Program-made: the position numbers and the translations under genes
Notes under the pieces: generated by a model
What the model saw: the letters and a program-made list of their open reading frames with translations, nothing else
Told to the model about the DNA's origin: nothing
Database searches by the model: none
Assembly (NCBI GenBank): GCA_021827865.1
Contig: JAKAUC010000013.1
Location: forward strand, 310,001 to 374,000
Direction of reading: 5' to 3'
Origin: an archaeon
GTDB lineage: Archaea; Thermoproteota; Nitrososphaeria; Nitrososphaerales; Gagatemarchaeaceae
Length of the DNA: 64,000 nt
In this document: positions 56,684-64,000 of the stretch, in pieces
How the letters are laid out: each line of letters starts with the position of its first letter
Position numbering within the stretch: position 1 is the first letter of the stretch

Positions 56684-59600
56684 CTAAAACCCGTACATCG
56701 GGTCAGACGGGGACTTTATCGCGACTATCTCGTCCAGCACCTGCTTCTCTGCCTCTGTGAGCGAGCCGAGGAGCTTGGTCCGGAGCAGCTTCGCCTCATG
56801 GCTGCGGGGCATGGTGTAGAGGGTGTCGTGCTCCTTCACCTGCCTGCCGAGGGTGGGGCCCTGCACGGAGATCGCGACCTCTTCCCCCTCCTTCGCCTCG
56901 CCGACAGCCTTGCCGTTGTCCTGCACCTGCTCGACCGTCCCCAGCTCGACACTCCCCGTCGACATCAACCTCACCTTGGGCCGGAGGCGACCGGCGACCA
57001 CCCTGACCCCGAACACCGCAGGGTCGTTGCGCCTGAAGAAGGCCCCGGGGAGTACCTTCAGCTTGCACGGCCTCGTAAGGTTCGAGAGCGCAGCCTTCTC
57101 ATCCGCATCCCTCTTCGCCGCAGCCCAGTTGGTGTAGTTGTCTATGACCTCGTAGATTATCGAGGAGACAAAGATCGGGCTCGAGCCCGCGTGCTCCCTG
57201 GCCTCTGGAAGGACCTTGGAGTCGAAGCCGAGGATCGCGCCGAGGTAGGGGTCGTGGTCCCCCACGACCTGGGCGCTGACGATATCGTTCTTCGAGATGT
57301 CCCCGATGTCCGTCTCCCTCACCGGGACGCCCCTCTCCTCCAGCATCCTCACGAGGGCCTCCAGGCCTCCGATGCTCCCCGCCTTCACTATGACCCCCAT
57401 GTTGTCGGTCTTGACCACTATGTTGGAGAGCTCCTTCTCCATCTCCACCTTCAGGCTCTGGAACTGCCTCTCGGTGGAGAAGGACGCCACCGAGGTACCA
57501 GCCACCACCCCTCCGAGGTCAGGGGAGACGAGCTTCACCCCGGCCGCTGCGTAGACTGCGTCCACCGGGGTGAACTTGTCCCTGGGGTCGCGCATCTCGT
57601 CCAGCGGCTTCGGCATGAACAGGGCCTTCACCTTTGATTTGAACGCGCCGTCCCTGCGGACCAGGGAGATGGAGTCCCCGACGCGGAGGTTCCCCTCGGT
57701 GAGGATGACGTTCGCAGTCTGGCCGATGCCCACCTCCTCCTGGAGCTCGAGGATTATCCCGCGGCCCGTGGCGGTGTCAACCATGCTGAGCTTCCCCTTC
57801 AGAAACTGCTGCGCGAGGCCGATCAGCATGGACAGCATCTCGGGCATCCCCACCGGCGCCCTGGCCGACACCGGGACGATGGACACCTGCTGGCGGAAGT
57901 CCTTGACCCTGTGATAGGCGTCCGACTGGAAGCCGAGGCGGCCCAGCCCGCCGACGACGTTGTACAGGCGCTCCTCCAGCTCGTCCCCCCAGGACGGGAC
58001 CTGGTCCTTCATGACCTGAAGGAGTGGGCCCTTGCTCCCCTTCCTCCATCCGTTGATCATGTCAATCTTGTTGAGGGCGACGAGGAAGGGGACCCGCCTC
58101 TGCTTCAAGATGTCGATGCTCTCCAGCGTCTGGTTCTCCAGCCCCTTCAGCACGTCGACAACCAGGATCGCGATGTCAGCCGCCGACCCTCCCCTGAGCC
58201 TGAGGTTCGAGAAGACGGCGTGCCCGGGGGTGTCGATCATGAGGAGGCCGGGGATCTGCAGCTCCCCCCCAGCCCTGTCCAGAAGGGGCCCGCATATCGC
58301 CTTCAGCGTCTCCATGGGGAAGAAGCTCGCGCCTATCTCCTGGGTTATCCCGCCCACTTCCCGGGCCTGGACCCCGGTCCCCCTGAGGACATCCGCCAGG
58401 CTGGTGTTATGGACCACCAAGCAGTTCGCCAGGAAGTTATGATCTTCGTCGACGGTGAAGTCGAACACGTCGAAGTCCCCTTCCAAGGATTCGACCTTAC
58501 AGACGGTAACGGTCCTGAACGACGTCAGGTTCTTGAGCAGCTCGACCTCCTGGCGGTGCTCCGGGATTGAGAGGACCGCCTCCAAAGCGCGGCCAGTGAG
58601 ATTATTCCCCTGGTGGTAGTTCGGCTGGAGGCCTCCGTCCCCGACGGCTCGGTACCTGGGCCTGAAGTCGTTCGACGGTCCTGCCGCAGGGGCAGTGCCG
58701 AAGACCCGGTCAGGCTGGGCTTTCGCCTTGGCGGTCTCGAGCAGACGTGCTTTTTCCGGCGCCCGGAAGCCTATGCTGGCGCTAAAGGCCGCCAGGTTCG
58801 TAGCCCCGCCTATCACCAGCCCATCCTTGCTCGCTTCCTTGGCGTAATATGCCAGGATCCCGAACCTCTGCAGCAACATCGGCAGCCGCCTCATCAAGTC
58901 TGGACTCTCCATGGAGATCCCCAGGCTCTTTCCCTTCTCGACCCAACCTTCGGCGTCAAAAAGGCCGGTCAGAAACGCGGCGGAGAAGGCGTCGGGCGCG
59001 GAAGTCACGACGTCGGGCAGAGTGGCGATTCGCGTCCTGCCGGCGCGCGGACAGCCGAACGCCGACACCAGAAACTCAGAAAAGGTCCTACTCCCCCTGT
59101 GCGCCACGACGTAAGAGGTCCTCCTCCAGACCGCGCTCGCGGGGACCCCGAAGGCTCTCCGCAGGCTTGCCCTGCATTCGCGGACGAGGGAGAGCGAAGC
59201 GTTGGACAGGCAGGCCCTCCCCCCGACGCCATCTCCAAAGAGCAATCCCACAAGATAGTAGGCTGAGAGCAGCTCCCGCTCGGACTTTGGGACCTTGAGC
59301 CAGAAGGAACTTCGTCCCCCAACCCTTGGGCTGGCGAACTTCACCCTCTTGATGTGGTCGTAGGCGACGGAGTTGGAGACGCCGCACAGGCTTGCCAGGG
59401 CCCGGTAGGCGTCAGCCCTGAAGTGGCCCTCTCGGAGGTGCTCCCCGAGGTCCTTGTCTCCGACCTTTTCTGCGACCCCCTCGATGCCCCTCTCCCGGCA
59501 GAGCTTCTCTATCCGTGCCAGGAGATGTGCGTCGGGCCGGATCAGGAAGGCGCGAGGGAGCCGAGAAAGAAGCTCGGCTTTGACCCCTTGGGTAGTCCAA

Positions 59601-60034
59601 GCCACAACTGGACAGGACGGTGGCACGGCAAGGCGGTCCCCAACCCGAAGCCTTTCAGCCTCGACGTACTCGACTCTTCCGTCAGGCTGGAACACCAGGA
59701 ATCTGTGCTCCGGGGTGGTTTCAAGCCCGTTGCCTGCGCGGGTCGTCACCCTGACGAGGCGGTCTGACTTCAGCTTCCAGACATAGGACGCGCTCCTCTT
59801 GACGATGGCCCCTCCAGACGACACGGAAAGGAGGTCCAGCCCGGCCGCGGGGTAGGCCACGCCATCGGGGGTCTGATGCGGGCTCCCTGACTTGTGCTTC
59901 TCGAAGAGTTCCTTTGCGCGCGAAATCCGCCCGTCCGCCAGCTGGAGCAGGGTCTCCCCGCTCACGCACTTGCCGCTATCTACGTGCCCTAGGATGACGA
60001 CTACAGGCTGCCGCATGCGGCCTTGCTCTGACAT
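56684..60034 (-). CDS. infB: Translation initiation factor aIF5B (IF2) interrupted by an intein
   Basis: 1116 aa precursor, 595 aa after intein removal, a normal archaeal aIF5B length. G1 ILGHVDSGK-TSLADVLR is split by the intein; then REVGGITQEIGASFFP (switch 1), G3 MIDTPGHAVFSNLRLRGG, G4 VALNKIDMINGW. Domains II-IV follow to the C-terminal KSPSDPMYGF. It promotes subunit joining. ATG start, 26 bp after ndk; rps6e follows. Confidence 0.95.
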   Translation of the reverse strand: MSEQGRMRQPVVVILGHVDSGKCVSGETLLQLADGRISRAKELFEKHKSGSPHQTPDGVAYPAAGLDLLSVSSGGAIVKRSASYVWKLKSDRLVRVTTRAGNGLETTPEHRFLVFQPDGRVEYVEAERLRVGDRLAVPPSCPVVAWTTQGVKAELLSRLPRAFLIRPDAHLLARIEKLCRERGIEGVAEKVGDKDLGEHLREGHFRADAYRALASLCGVSNSVAYDHIKRVKFASPRVGGRSSFWLKVPKSERELLSAYYLVGLLFGDGVGGRACLSNASLSLVRECRASLRRAFGVPASAVWRRTSYVVAHRGSRTFSEFLVSAFGCPRAGRTRIATLPDVVTSAPDAFSAAFLTGLFDAEGWVEKGKSLGISMESPDLMRRLPMLLQRFGILAYYAKEASKDGLVIGGATNLAAFSASIGFRAPEKARLLETAKAKAQPDRVFGTAPAAGPSNDFRPRYRAVGDGGLQPNYHQGNNLTGRALEAVLSIPEHRQEVELLKNLTSFRTVTVCKVESLEGDFDVFDFTVDEDHNFLANCLVVHNTSLADVLRGTGVQAREVGGITQEIGASFFPMETLKAICGPLLDRAGGELQIPGLLMIDTPGHAVFSNLRLRGGSAADIAILVVDVLKGLENQTLESIDILKQRRVPFLVALNKIDMINGWRKGSKGPLLQVMKDQVPSWGDELEERLYNVVGGLGRLGFQSDAYHRVKDFRQQVSIVPVSARAPVGMPEMLSMLIGLAQQFLKGKLSMVDTATGRGIILELQEEVGIGQTANVILTEGNLRVGDSISLVRRDGAFKSKVKALFMPKPLDEMRDPRDKFTPVDAVYAAAGVKLVSPDLGGVVAGTSVASFSTERQFQSLKVEMEKELSNIVVKTDNMGVIVKAGSIGGLEALVRMLEERGVPVRETDIGDISKNDIVSAQVVGDHDPYLGAILGFDSKVLPEAREHAGSSPIFVSSIIYEVIDNYTNWAAAKRDADEKAALSNLTRPCKLKVLPGAFFRRNDPAVFGVRVVAGRLRPKVRLMSTGSVELGTVEQVQDNGKAVGEAKEGEEVAISVQGPTLGRQVKEHDTLYTMPRSHEAKLLRTKLLGSLTEAEKQVLDEIVAIKSPSDPMYGF
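58406..59968 (-). other. aIF5B intein with LAGLIDADG endonuclease (521 aa)
   Basis: It starts with Cys (CVSGETLLQLADGRIS) right after the P-loop Lys and ends VVHN before extein Thr. The B block ETTPEHRFLV and the C-terminal F block FDVFDFTVDEDHNFLA are intact. Endonuclease motifs are YYLVGLLFGDGVG and AFLTGLFDAEGWV. The P-loop of IF2/aIF5B is a known intein site in other archaea. All blocks look functional. Confidence 0.93.
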
Positions 60035-60060: not shown

Positions 60061-60480
60061 TCACCCTCGCGTCTGGCCGAAGAAAGCAGCGCTCTCCTTT
60101 GTAAAGCTCTCTGCAGAGTCCGAGGCATGGATGCAGTTGTCCGTGAGCCCCAGCCCGAAGTCCCCCCTGATGGTCCCCGCCGCTGCTTCCCAGCTCTTGG
60201 TCGCCCCGACCATGCGCCTGACGGTGGCTATCGCGTCCCTCCCTGAGAGGACCGCCCCGACGACAGGACCAGACGAGATGAAGGAGACGAGCTCCCCGAA
60301 GAATGGCTTTTCCTTGTGGACGCTGTAGAACTCCTCCGCCTGGGGCCTGGACATCGTGAGCATCTGGAGCCTCTTGACGGCGAATCCCTTCTTCTCGAAC
60401 CTGCCGATTATCTCTCCGACGATGCCACGCCTCACCCCGTCGGGCTTCACGACGACAAGGGTGTCTTCGGCGGCGCTCAC
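60061..60480 (-). CDS. ndk: Nucleoside diphosphate kinase
   Basis: 139 aa. VVVKPDGVRRGIVGEIIGRF, FFGELVSFISSGPVVGAVL and the active-site His in GLTDNCIHASDSAESF are complete. It equilibrates NTP pools. The GTG at 60480 overlaps the eL24 stop (GTGA), preferred over the longer frame to 60555. Confidence 0.95.
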   Translation of the reverse strand: MSAAEDTLVVVKPDGVRRGIVGEIIGRFEKKGFAVKRLQMLTMSRPQAEEFYSVHKEKPFFGELVSFISSGPVVGAVLSGRDAIATVRRMVGATKSWEAAAGTIRGDFGLGLTDNCIHASDSAESFTKESAAFFGQTRG

Positions 60481-60662
60481 TTCTTGGCTGGCCTCCGCCT
60501 TGCCCACTTCAGCTTGCGCGGGTCGCGGCCAAGCTTCAGGTCGTTGATCTTGCACTTCGAAGAGCAGTAGGACTTGGTGGAGCCGTCGCCCTTCACGTAG
60601 AGGATGCCCGCGCCGAGCCTAACCTCTTTACCACAGAAGACGCATTTCTTTGGGACGTACAT
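60477..60662 (-). CDS. rpl24e: Ribosomal protein eL24
   Basis: 61 aa. Zinc finger with KKCVFCGKEV and YCSSKCKIN (four Cys), then LKLGRDPRKLKWA. First gene of eL24-ndk-infB-eS6. A TATA-like ctttatatcc lies about 50 nt upstream. The 209 bp before it to 60871 contain no gene. Confidence 0.95.
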   Translation of the reverse strand: MYVPKKCVFCGKEVRLGAGILYVKGDGSTKSYCSSKCKINDLKLGRDPRKLKWARRRPAKK

Positions 60663-60871: not shown

Positions 60872-61816
60872 TCAGGTCGGGACAGTCCCGCCGAGGAGCC
60901 TCATCCAGTGCTGCGCCTCGACGATGAGCCTCTGACCAAAGTCCTTGGGGTGCGGGACGAACCCCTCTACGGCCTTCGCCACGGTCTCCGGTCCCAGGTT
61001 CGCCAGGTCCTCTAGGTTGACGGCCGGCGAGCCTGTGGCGTGGCGCAGCCTCACCCCGATCTCCAGCTCGTTCGCCTGTATCGCCTCGAGCTCCTTCCTG
61101 TCTGCGAAGGCGCTGGACAGCAGAGGGACGTCCCCTGATAGTATGATCTCCCTGACTGACCTCCCCTTCGCCGCCATGGCGGCGTAGAGATGGCTGGGTG
61201 GGGCCACCTCCTCCAGGGAGAGCGCCCCGAACAGGGTCCTGGCCGTCGGCATCTTCCTGATCCCCCGCCTCTCCGAGACCATCTTCTTCAGGTCGACTGA
61301 GGCGATGAACGGGAAGACGTAGTCGACGGTCTTCGGCACCTGCTTCGCAAGGTTCTGCCTGAACCAGAGCCTGAGCGCGTCCTGGGAGTCGAGGCCCGGA
61401 GGGGTCCTAGTCGGAGGGAGGATCCAGACGCCAGGCTGGATCGGCTTGAACCCCTTCTCGATCAGCCTGTCCTTGAATATCACCGAGTCCTTCTTCTTCT
61501 TCGTCTTTTCGTAGGACTTGAAGATGAGGAGGGACTTCGCTTCGTATGGATAGGACCTGAGGAGCTCTTCGGGGGTCAACCCTGAGTTCTTGAGCTGCCA
61601 GTCGAGGCGCAGCATCAGCCGCCTGTAGACCGCGTCCCGGTCCTCGAAGGTGGCGGGGACCGTGGCGTCCTCGCCGTCGACCTCGATGCGCTGGATGACC
61701 GCGAGTATCAGCTCCTCGTCCTTGGTGGAGTCCGACCCAGAGATCTTGCTCAGGGGGGCCTTGACCCTGTCGAAGAAGCCGGTGATCCGCTTTACGGCTG
61801 ACATGGTTCCTGCCAC
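60872..61816 (-). CDS. Unknown protein, third gene of the tubulin-like operon
   Basis: 314 aa, not recognised. The N-terminus (MSAVKRITGFFDRVKAPLSK) could form an amphipathic helix that touches membranes. A charged helical region (about 40-120, with KSYEKTKKKKDSVIFKDRL) and a globular part (FKPIQPGVWILPP, VDYVFPFIASVDLKKMVSERR) follow; the C-terminus is helical and ends HWMRLLGGTVPT. No membrane span. It follows the coiled-coil gene by about 40 bp on the same strand and is likely cotranscribed with the tubulin-like GTPase. The start could be ATG 61816 or 61804. Confidence 0.7.
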   Translation of the reverse strand: MAGTMSAVKRITGFFDRVKAPLSKISGSDSTKDEELILAVIQRIEVDGEDATVPATFEDRDAVYRRLMLRLDWQLKNSGLTPEELLRSYPYEAKSLLIFKSYEKTKKKKDSVIFKDRLIEKGFKPIQPGVWILPPTRTPPGLDSQDALRLWFRQNLAKQVPKTVDYVFPFIASVDLKKMVSERRGIRKMPTARTLFGALSLEEVAPPSHLYAAMAAKGRSVREIILSGDVPLLSSAFADRKELEAIQANELEIGVRLRHATGSPAVNLEDLANLGPETVAKAVEGFVPHPKDFGQRLIVEAQHWMRLLGGTVPT

Positions 61817-61858
61817 CCGCGGGCCCTGGATTCTTGGAGAGGCATTCTCGGCCTTCGT

Positions 61859-62395
61859 CTAGGAGAGCTTCCGCGCCACTGCCTTCCTCAGGTCCTCGAA
61901 GGCCTCCACCACCTTCTTCTTGGAGAAGTACTCGTCGGACTCTTCCACGACGACCTTGTCGTCGAAGATGCTCACGTCCCCCATCCTGAGTGGTGCCCTG
62001 ATGCCCAGCATCGATGAGATGCCCTCGACCGACTTTGGGAAGGTCGCGCCTGACCTGAACTTGAAGGTGAAAGCGCCCCCTCCTGAGGCGGGGGTGGGGT
62101 CCAGGGGGACGATGAGCCGTCCGGACCTGAGCCCCTGCAGCATCTGGCCCTTGACTTCTCCGATCGCCTTCAGGACGTCATCCCGCTCCCTCTTGAGGGC
62201 TGCGGCCCTGTCCTGGTGTCCGGGGTCGGACCAGTCGAGGCCGATCAGGGCGTAGAAAGCCTGGTCCTTCTCGTTCCTCTTCGGGTCCTGTTTGATCTCC
62301 TGCGACAGCGTCTCCAGCTCGCTGTCGATGGTCCGGAGCCTCTTCTGCTCCTCCAACAGCCTTCCGGCTGCTACCTCCAGTTCTGTGAGGTTCAT
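61859..62395 (-). CDS. Coiled-coil protein, second gene of the tubulin-like operon
   Basis: 178 aa, not recognised. Residues 1-45 (LTELEVAAGRLLEEQKRLRT, LETLSQEIKQD) and about 65-90 are heptad-rich and probably coiled coil. A Gly/Ser linker (DPTPASGGGAFTFKF) leads to a small C-terminal domain (about 110-178) with acidic stretch VVVEESDEYFSKKKVVEAFE. Five bp from the tubulin-like stop, so probably coupled. It may be a filament cofactor or adaptor; that is inferred from position only. Confidence 0.7.
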   Translation of the reverse strand: MNLTELEVAAGRLLEEQKRLRTIDSELETLSQEIKQDPKRNEKDQAFYALIGLDWSDPGHQDRAAALKRERDDVLKAIGEVKGQMLQGLRSGRLIVPLDPTPASGGGAFTFKFRSGATFPKSVEGISSMLGIRAPLRMGDVSIFDDKVVVEESDEYFSKKKVVEAFEDLRKAVARKLS

Positions 62396-62400
62396 TTCCT

Positions 62401-63765
62401 CTACCCCAAGTGGCTTGAGACTTCGATTACCGCCTTCTTGAACTCCTCGTGCGTCAGGTTCTTGTTCTGATACTCGTCCTTGTAAGAGTCCCAGGCATCC
62501 TCTGCCTCCGTGACTATGGGGAGGAGCTTCTTCCCGACCCCCTTGACGTTGAGCAGGACGAGGGCCGAGGCGGGCTCCGCGGGCATGGTGGGGATCTTGA
62601 TGAATATCACGCGCTTGTCTTGGATGCCGTACTTCTCGTTGAGTATCTTCTTGAAGAACTCCCTCTCCTCGGCCCCCACGCTCCCGGCGGCCTTGATCAG
62701 GACGCAGGCGGAGTCAGTCTTCCCCTTCTCAACCTCCCCCTCCTGTTCGAGGTCGAAGAGGACCCCGTCGTTCCCCTCGTCCATGGCGGCCTCGATGGAC
62801 TTTACGTCAGAGCCCCCCTTGGGGGCCAGGGGTATGAGCCATGGGACCACGAACTTCGGCTTGCTCGCCGCCAGCCAGGTCCTGTAGTTGGACATGTCCC
62901 ACTCCGTCTCCCGGATGAACGAGTCCATGAACTCGGCGATCACGTGAGCGGCCAGCAGGTTCTTGTTCCTGTAGTCGTGCCAGCCGACGCGTATCTGCTT
63001 CGGGAGTTCGTCCACGATTGAAGACCTCGCGTCGAGCATGCCCTTCAGCCTGTCGGCCTGGAAACGCAGCTCCTTGTTGTCCATCAGCACTGGAGCGTCT
63101 GAATACTTGATCTGGTAGGCGAGGTTGAGAACTATGCTGATGTGAGCCGGGCCGTAGATTACCGGGTCCCACCCGAACTCTGGGAGAACGCCGAATGTAG
63201 CTATCGTCGCCTGGCCGAGGGTGTTGCTCCCCTTCACGTAGGCCATGAACTCCGAAGAGAAGGAGCCGCCTGTCCCTCCGCCCATGCTGAACGGGACTAT
63301 GAACCCCCTCACCGGCTCGGGGGAGATCGCCTGTATCCTCGACGCGATGTCCTGCTTCCCTACGATCTCGTTCCTGAACCTGCTCCTCCCTTCGGCCCAG
63401 TTCCTCGCCGCCCCGCCCAGGCCGTAGACGGCGTGCTTGTCCTTCATGGCGAAGAGCTGCGGATAGGATTGCAGGATTAGGTTGGCCGAGCGCGGGTCGA
63501 GGTCCACGAGCAGCGCCCTCGGCACCAGGGGGGTCTCCCCCCTGCGGAGGGAGGCGCCGAACCTGAGTATCGTACTCCCGTACCGCCGCAGGACCTCCAG
63601 CTGCTGCTTCTCCCCCTTCAAGGTCGGGGCGGTGGGGTCAGCGCCCACGTCGATCAGAACCCAGCGGTATGCTTCAGCGCCGATTCCAACCCCGGCGTGG
63701 CCCATGCAGGCCATGATCACCGGATTGGGAGCGAGCGGCGCTTGATTCGCGATCCTGAACGCCAA
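62401..63765 (-). CDS. Tubulin/FtsZ-superfamily GTPase with tubulin-like signatures
   Basis: 454 aa from TTG 63765. Near residues 22-37, GHAGVGIGAEAYRWVL aligns with the tubulin opening GQCGNQIGAKFWEVI, rather than FtsZ. ALLVDLDPRSANLIL (about 85-99) matches tubulin FVDLEPTVID; PQLFAMKDKHAVYGLGGAAR and NWAEGR match QLFHPEQLI...NNYARG. The glycine signature is GGGTGGS (about 162-168; tubulin GGGTGSG). VLMDNKELR matches FMVDNEAIY. The T7-loop candidate TEWDMSNYRTW keeps Asp but not the catalytic acidic residue. TTG is favoured over ATG 63780, as it has a TATA-like cgtataaaaaag about 26 nt upstream and ggagg 7 nt before it. Confidence 0.8.
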   Translation of the reverse strand: MAFRIANQAPLAPNPVIMACMGHAGVGIGAEAYRWVLIDVGADPTAPTLKGEKQQLEVLRRYGSTILRFGASLRRGETPLVPRALLVDLDPRSANLILQSYPQLFAMKDKHAVYGLGGAARNWAEGRSRFRNEIVGKQDIASRIQAISPEPVRGFIVPFSMGGGTGGSFSSEFMAYVKGSNTLGQATIATFGVLPEFGWDPVIYGPAHISIVLNLAYQIKYSDAPVLMDNKELRFQADRLKGMLDARSSIVDELPKQIRVGWHDYRNKNLLAAHVIAEFMDSFIRETEWDMSNYRTWLAASKPKFVVPWLIPLAPKGGSDVKSIEAAMDEGNDGVLFDLEQEGEVEKGKTDSACVLIKAAGSVGAEEREFFKKILNEKYGIQDKRVIFIKIPTMPAEPASALVLLNVKGVGKKLLPIVTEAEDAWDSYKDEYQNKNLTHEEFKKAVIEVSSHLG

Positions 63766-63785
63766 CGATTCACCTCCCATCCCAT

Positions 63786-63797
63786 CTTTTTTATACG
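63786..63797. promoter_or_regulatory. Shared divergent TATA element of the tubulin-like operon and the vWA gene
   Basis: cttttttatacg on the plus strand (cgtataaaaaag on minus) lies about 26-33 nt from both the minus TTG at 63765 and the plus TTG at 63824. One AT-rich block in a 58-bp spacer could serve both leaderless transcripts. Confidence 0.55.
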
Positions 63798-63823
63798 TTT
63801 GTCAGGTTCGTGGAGAGACGAGA

Positions 63824-64000
63824 TTGAGCTACGACGAGTCCAACGCGACCGACCTGCTCTTCATCATAGACGGCTCGAGGAGCATGGGAGGGAAGATGCA
63901 CTCCTCAGGGATGAGCAAGATGAAGATGGTCAAGACAGGGCTGTTCGACTACGTCGCGGAGCACTGGCCGGTCTCCTATTTCCCCTGGCCAACGAGGATG
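63824..64000 (+). CDS. von Willebrand factor A domain protein, N-terminal part (continues beyond window)
   Basis: 59 residues are visible. LLFIIDGSRSMGGKM is the first beta strand and MIDAS metal site (D-x-S-x-S) of a vWA domain. KMKMVKTGLFDYVAEHWPVS fits the following helix. No signal peptide precedes it, so the domain is probably cytoplasmic. TTG start; divergent from the tubulin-like operon. The full length and further domains are outside the window. Confidence 0.82.
   Translation, partial: MSYDESNATDLLFIIDGSRSMGGKMHSSGMSKMKMVKTGLFDYVAEHWPVSYFPWPTRM

Follow-up and report, generated by a model that had tools for sequence, protein, structure and literature searches.

The window analysed here is a stretch of 64,000 nucleotides of archaeal DNA from a member of the Nitrososphaeria (contig JAKAUC010000013.1, positions 310,001 to 374,000 of the forward strand), and at its right-hand end lie four genes that include a GTPase of the tubulin superfamily. 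The GTPase gene (62401..63765, minus strand; 454 amino acids) encodes what is, on sequence grounds, an artubulin, a member of a thaumarchaeal family described in 2012. The gene that we call P2 (61859..62395, minus strand; 178 amino acids) starts 5 bp past the GTPase stop codon and is followed by P3 (60872..61816, minus strand; 314 amino acids), which begins with an amphipathic helix (VKRITGFFDRVKAPLSKI). On the other side, a gene for a vWA-domain protein of 191 amino acids starts divergently (63824..64000, plus strand) and continues past the window (L003:7825-8400). A preliminary description of this DNA had reported the same four genes in this arrangement, and the gene calls hold. The locus sits on a 527-kb contig of a 1.94-Mb assembly (20 contigs, 99.24% complete, 7.47% contaminated). 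Across 15 related loci (L049-L063) the identities are 88-94% for the GTPase, 62-89% for P2 and 65-86% for P3, so the reading frames are not due to chance.

The preliminary description had suggested comparing the GTPase with Tubulin, Tubulin_2 and FtsZ profiles. Its one Pfam match at E ≤ 1 is PF00091 (Tubulin), with 40.9 bits (cut-off 33); neither Tubulin_2 nor FtsZ_C is matched. Using phmmer against the PDB, the best 60 of 166 matches are all tubulins, the first being the Asgard tubulin AtubB (2.1e-16). A profile of 25 homologues finds AtubB (3.9e-22), γ-tubulin (2.7e-14) and OdinTubulin (annotated in its entry as a tubulin-like protein; 5.4e-13), with no FtsZ among the best 60 of 172 matches. 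The sequence matches to PDB entries stop near residue 240, roughly where the GTPase domain ends. The AlphaFold2 (AF2) model has a mean predicted local distance difference test (pLDDT) score of 65.5 and a predicted template modelling (pTM) score of 0.64, and Foldseek aligns it over nearly its whole length with tubulins and OdinTubulin (TM scores of 0.58-0.68, E about 1e-15). At E ≤ 0.001 the search gave 997 matches in the PDB, and the best 50 are entries of tubulins, tubulin complexes or OdinTubulin. The tubulin/FtsZ GTPase fold that had been expected of this protein is thus found, and the protein is closer to tubulins than to FtsZ, as first proposed.

Over its full length the GTPase is 54% identical to the proteins of two loci, L070 and L071, which we take, from their synteny, to be the published Nitrosarchaeum artubulin locus. 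A Snf7 gene adjoins the artubulin gene in two genomes of genus g10, G056 and G067 (38.9 and 37.7 bits, cut-off 27.3). The other neighbours at L070 (in G056), which were read by eye, are genes for a dCMP deaminase, a DNA polymerase, a small hypothetical protein, TPI and an AsnC-type regulator, and they match, in sequence, the genes numbered in the figure legend of PMC3349469. The identity and the synteny together make the window protein an artubulin in another host family; as far as the available parts of the two papers go, it belongs to the same full-length family as the artubulins of Nitrosarchaeum (PMC3349469) and Ca. Nitrosotenuis uzonensis (PMC3835317). Three samples were searched: the host family of the window, f1 (46 genomes), the class (250 genomes) and the phylum (398 genomes). 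Artubulin homologues occur in 23, 53 and 23 genomes, respectively, the last at E ≤ 1e-10 and all within one order. The family with the Nitrosarchaeum-like locus, f2, looks like the Nitrosopumilaceae.

This assignment bears on the suggestion, made in the preliminary description, that the locus is an archaeal version of the FtsZl1-type operons of Makarova and Koonin (2010), with a vWA protein and an FtsZ-like protein acting in membrane remodelling. A vWA gene with a DxSxS motif beside a gene of the tubulin superfamily is indeed common to both, going by the available text of PMC2875224, but the GTPase family differs: the window protein lacks a Tubulin_2 match at E ≤ 1 and is related to artubulins over its full length. 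The vWA gene is divergent and was found beside artubulin in f1 and not in the other families examined. We regard the FtsZl1 interpretation as highly improbable.

P2 is the near-constant downstream partner of artubulin. It is the next gene downstream, on the same strand, at 19/19 named and 20/20 unnamed loci; L064 and L083 share a contig, which leaves 38 distinct artubulin contigs with P2 on all 38, and the P2 gene of L078 needed a profile search to be found. The gap between the two genes was computed, with start codons chosen by script, at 37 of the 39 loci, and is 2-18 bp at all 37. In the class sample P2 is directly downstream at 53 of the 54 artubulin loci (53 genomes), and in G259, which holds the remaining locus, the two genes are on separate contigs. 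Within the host family, the 23/46 genomes that have artubulin are exactly those that have P2. The pairing is also seen at L070 and L071, as in the window, and one genome of family f5 (G156) has two artubulin-P2 pairs (L079 and L080, on contigs C7 and C69).

Trees of artubulin and P2 were made for 29 of the 39 loci, leaving out near-copies and short GTPases. Both separate f1, L065-L067 and f2 plus f5 alike, and these shared splits at the level of groups fit joint inheritance of the two genes. L065-L067 is weakly held in the P2 tree (74/57), and its label there, f9, is a guess from likeness to the P2 of G236. Artubulin evolves more slowly than its partners: between the window and f2 or f5 the identity is 52-56% for artubulin and 22-28% for P2. 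The AF2 model of P2 (pLDDT 92.9) shows a helical hairpin (residues 3-50 and 60-90) and a small α-β domain (residues 103-177), and Foldseek found no fold match in the PDB at E ≤ 0.001. Neither P2 nor P3 of the window has a Pfam match above the cut-off or an NCBIfam match at E ≤ 1. Membership of P2 in Snf7 or another named family was considered and rejected, as the Pfam and NCBIfam hits of the 28 aligned members are weak and scattered, with at most three members per family and a best E of 4e-4. The P2 profile matches mostly designed or other coiled coils in the PDB (best E 5e-4).

In the host family, vWA and P3 join artubulin and P2 as a four-gene cassette. P3 is present in 22 of the 23 f1 genomes with artubulin and in none of the 23 without it. 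In the one miss, G013, artubulin is at a contig edge; in G011, G014 and G015, P3 and artubulin are on separate contigs, which makes the co-occurrence more than mere adjacency. In the class sample P3 is found in eight of the 250 genomes, all from f1, and in 0/236 others. A strong vWA match (>250 bits) is present in 21 of the 23 f1 genomes with artubulin, and in the two misses (G013 and G014) artubulin is cut at a contig edge. Weaker matches occur in f1 genomes without artubulin: G003 (159 bits), G030 (83 bits, at a contig edge), G024 (37 bits) and G037 (34 bits). The partners proposed in the preliminary description are real genetic partners. Its condition that homologues should not be widespread without them has a split outcome: artubulins lacking vWA and P3 nearby exist in other families, but in the class sample none occurs without P2.

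The window cassette is bordered on the left by the gene for L7Ae (L003:8885-9271; PF01248) and on the right by that for the ribosomal protein L24e (60477..60662, minus strand; PF01246), and it lies between these two genes at 15 of the 19 named loci. In G002 and G029 it is instead between the genes for lysyl-tRNA synthetase and Cdc48, and the L7Ae-L24e sites of these two genomes (1.2-1.6 kb) are without it. The same four genes at two chromosomal sites indicate that they travel as a unit. In four genomes that lack the cassette, 234-1229 bp separate L7Ae from L24e (L115, L116, L117 and L119; 234-349 bp in the last three). In a fifth genome without artubulin, G032, the 4 kb from L24e to the contig end contain no L7Ae match (L118:5312-9290). 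Carriage by a mobile element was considered and rejected, as tblastn against plasmids and phages gave nothing at E ≤ 0.01.

The vWA gene matches PF00092 (E = 1.6e-6). Its metal-ion-dependent adhesion site (MIDAS) keeps DxSxS and the Asp in 11/11 aligned proteins, while the position where Thr is usual has Ser in ten and Ala in one, so that calling the site intact, as was done initially, was slightly generous. An amphipathic, positively charged helix lies within the first 27 residues of P3 in 11/11 aligned proteins, with a hydrophobic moment of 0.51-0.68 and a net charge of +3 to +6. One of 5000 shuffles of the window P3 and none of 178 other genes reach both the discriminant and the moment; the moment alone is reached by 12 of 5000 shuffles. 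N-terminal amphipathic helices are known to tether FtsZ partners to membranes.

We think that the locus, an artubulin module of the Nitrososphaeria (Thaumarchaeota), probably encodes a GTP-dependent filament that has P2 as its binding partner and P3 and vWA as a lineage-specific membrane adaptor. We infer polymerisation, GTP hydrolysis, protein contacts, membrane binding and a role in the cell for this system, as follows. By analogy with other proteins of the tubulin superfamily, artubulin would bind GTP and form protofilaments. P2, with its helical hairpin and small globular head, may bind the filament or its subunits and regulate or link them, in a role that could be comparable to that of BtubC or of Zap proteins. 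In f1, the amphipathic helix at the N-terminus of P3 would tether the complex to the membrane, with the vWA protein acting as a metal-dependent adaptor that, like P3, is specific to f1. The system would work alongside the FtsZ-like and Snf7-like proteins of the same genome and would not replace them. It would be an accessory (to cell shape, the envelope or positioning) not essential for division, given the close relatives without the cassette, which are up to 100% complete (G019), and the FtsZ-like and Snf7 genes of the genome itself. A wider reading, which we put forward tentatively and with less than even expectation, is that of an ancient tubulin cytoskeleton of the Nitrososphaeria: artubulin and P2, which has no known fold relative, would have been inherited vertically across several families, with f1 having a membrane-tethered apparatus of four components that moves as a unit from one genomic site to another, the whole being separate from FtsZ, CetZ and the Asgard tubulins.

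Several observations weigh against the module as described above. In the P2 tree f5 falls, weakly, inside f2, so that f2 is not one group. P3 and vWA are absent from the fetched stretches around 15 f2/f5 loci and L065-L067. Fisher's test gives 5.8e-12 for the co-occurrence of P3 and artubulin, a value that is too strong at face value, since the genomes of a genus are not independent samples and the p-values overstate the association. The discriminant of the P3 helix, taken alone, is reached by 11% of the 178 background genes. The AF2 model of the GTPase is of only middling confidence, as its mean pLDDT shows, and residues 285-298 of artubulin, RETEWDMSN[YF]RTWL in 25/25 aligned proteins, are unlike the catalytic T7 loop of tubulins and FtsZ, which has the textbook form NxDxxE/D. 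The segment was placed near T7 from the secondary structure predicted for it, in a stretch where the model has low confidence. The difference suggests that GTP hydrolysis, and with it catalysis, may be altered in artubulins. Another reading is then that the GTPase is now a regulator or scaffold that does not polymerise. In its favour are this non-canonical and yet invariant segment, the low confidence of the model there and the very long branch on which artubulins stand in published trees. According to the passages available from PMC13394414, which describe that branch, the position of artubulins at the base of the tubulins is never fully resolved. Against it, the motifs GHxGxGxGAE and GGGTG are kept in 25/25 aligned artubulins, and the artubulin sequence is better conserved than those of its partners; we consider a non-polymerising GTPase to be unlikely.

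Further points against the module come from P2 genes that stand without an intact artubulin. P2-like genes are present in 73/250 class-sample genomes, and 20 of these 73 are without artubulin: five with a full-length P2 (f3), 12 with the C-terminal part only (f4) and three with remnants (G236, G132 and G152). It follows that P2 has a second role, or once had one. At the loci that were read, the f3 genes adjoin a radical-SAM gene and a small gene that belongs to no Pfam family, and the f4 parts adjoin the EMG1 and Rpp21 genes (f3 and f4 relatives without artubulin: L098-L102, L103-L110 and L114). A divergent tubulin beside these genes was looked for and rejected: run against the main reading frames at 17 loci, the artubulin profile gave no match below E = 0.98, and the genomes of those loci have no artubulin match in the class-sample search either. 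In two genomes of genus g13, G255 and G164, P2 is intact while artubulin is cut down to residues 228-461 and 294-461 (numbered as in f2 relatives; L086:7421-8206 and L087:3810-4325), the GTPase domain being gone; either the gene is in a late stage of decay or its C-terminal piece has been retained.

Both the artubulin-free relatives of P2 and the intact P2 beside a broken artubulin would be expected if P2 were an independent conserved gene whose position is an inherited neighbourhood and has nothing to do with function. The artubulin-P2 pair persists, however, while the surrounding genes change, and f1 and f2 genomes that lack artubulin have either no P2 or a remnant of it; we therefore hold an independent P2 to be unlikely. 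The remnants in G152, G132 and G236 are counted for the pairing, as in all three artubulin and P2 decay jointly, with G132 and G236 having no artubulin match in the genome search. In G152 the Nitrosarchaeum-type locus (L113:5957-7163) has lost artubulin and keeps a remnant of P2, with the Snf7-like gene and the flanks in place by eye, so that the artubulin-P2 pair was lost while Snf7 stayed.

This last locus also bears on the proposal, made in 2012 (PMC3349469, in the passages available), that artubulin acts in division with ESCRT-III; artubulin would then work chiefly with Snf7/CdvB, and P2, P3 and vWA would be side genes. Snf7 is directly upstream of artubulin in the two Nitrosarchaeum-type genomes mentioned above. 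It is adjacent, however, in only two of the 16 artubulin-bearing genomes searched, a count that leaves out another five artubulin genomes of g10; in Ca. N. uzonensis no Snf7 gene lies near artubulin, going by the accessible text of PMC3835317; and in G152 the Snf7 gene (the same one by eye) outlasts artubulin. The adjacency count weakens Snf7 as a general partner, and a system built chiefly on ESCRT-III seems to us quite unlikely. The window host is, like the published artubulin hosts, thaumarchaeal with FtsZ-like and Snf7-like proteins (again as far as those papers were available). It differs from them in its family, in having no Snf7 gene next to artubulin, in the additional vWA and P3 genes and in the position of the locus among ribosomal protein genes. 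Its FtsZ-like gene is at L001:958-2043 (361 amino acids, PF00091 with 68.8 bits), and its two Snf7 matches, one above and one below the family cut-off, are on other contigs than artubulin, C13 and C7. The FtsZ-like protein carries GGATGSG; the usual FtsZ motif at that place is GGGTG.

Returning to the artubulin module, Asgard AtubB is the best sequence match of its GTPase domain in the PDB and OdinTubulin is among the best fold matches, while the likeness in sequence to Asgard tubulins ends with that domain. In the portions of PMC13394414 and PMC9871819 available to us, AtubA and AtubB are paired tubulin genes, in contrast to the single tubulin with a non-tubulin partner found here. The arrangement resembles that of Prosthecobacter BtubA/B and BtubC, in which a tubulin gene and a dedicated non-tubulin partner form one operon; BtubC, which acts as a filament stabiliser, is the 'bacterial kinesin light chain', a TPR protein, whereas P2 is a helical hairpin of no named family (PMC9871819, same portions). 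The same source states that most genes of unknown function near archaeal tubulin-like proteins contain coiled coils.

P2, P3 and vWA are not named as neighbours of artubulin in the text passages available from PMC3349469, PMC3835317, PMC9871819, PMC13394414 and PMC7613921, although a figure of PMC9871819 may show P2, nor in those from PMC7617429, PMC12993045, PMC10640624 and PMC2875224, with supplements outside this scope. Literature on tubulin or FtsZ-like proteins together with Thaumarchaeota, vWA, Nitrosopumilus, Nitrososphaerota or Nitrosarchaeum gave none on these partners, mostly at the level of titles. Relative to those passages, the P2 pairing, the co-occurrence in f1, the cassette at two sites and the P3 helix are new. 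The literature since 2012 has cited artubulins as possibly related to the ancestor of eukaryotic tubulin, with Snf7 the only functional partner proposed in the passages at hand; the P2, cassette and loss-site findings argue against Snf7 as the general one. A little-studied archaeal tubulin thereby gains a testable set of helpers, P2 and two lineage-specific genes. The near-constant P2, the cassette with its likely membrane helix and the natural loss sites are concrete bait for biochemistry, also in cultivated ammonia-oxidising relatives.

The start of the artubulin gene was considered separately. The reading frame can begin with TTG at 63765 or with an in-frame ATG at 63780. A TATA-like box (ACAAACGTATAAAAAAGAT-like; 63787..63795, minus strand) lies about 30 nt before the TTG, just after GGAGGTGA in the region upstream of the gene. 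A block of this kind is found in 5/5 relatives compared (L049, L051, L057, L061 and L081), varied in L057 and L081, whereas an ATG at the place of 63780 was found in none of the five. TTG at 63765 is thus the likeliest start, and it is also the start codon in L049, L051, L057 and L061. Rfam and tRNA scans of the window found nothing. The aIF5B/IF2 gene of the window (56684-60034, minus strand) contains an intein with a LAGLIDADG domain; the spacing between Ndk and IF2 suggests that this intein is absent from L051 and L060 and present in L049 and L057.

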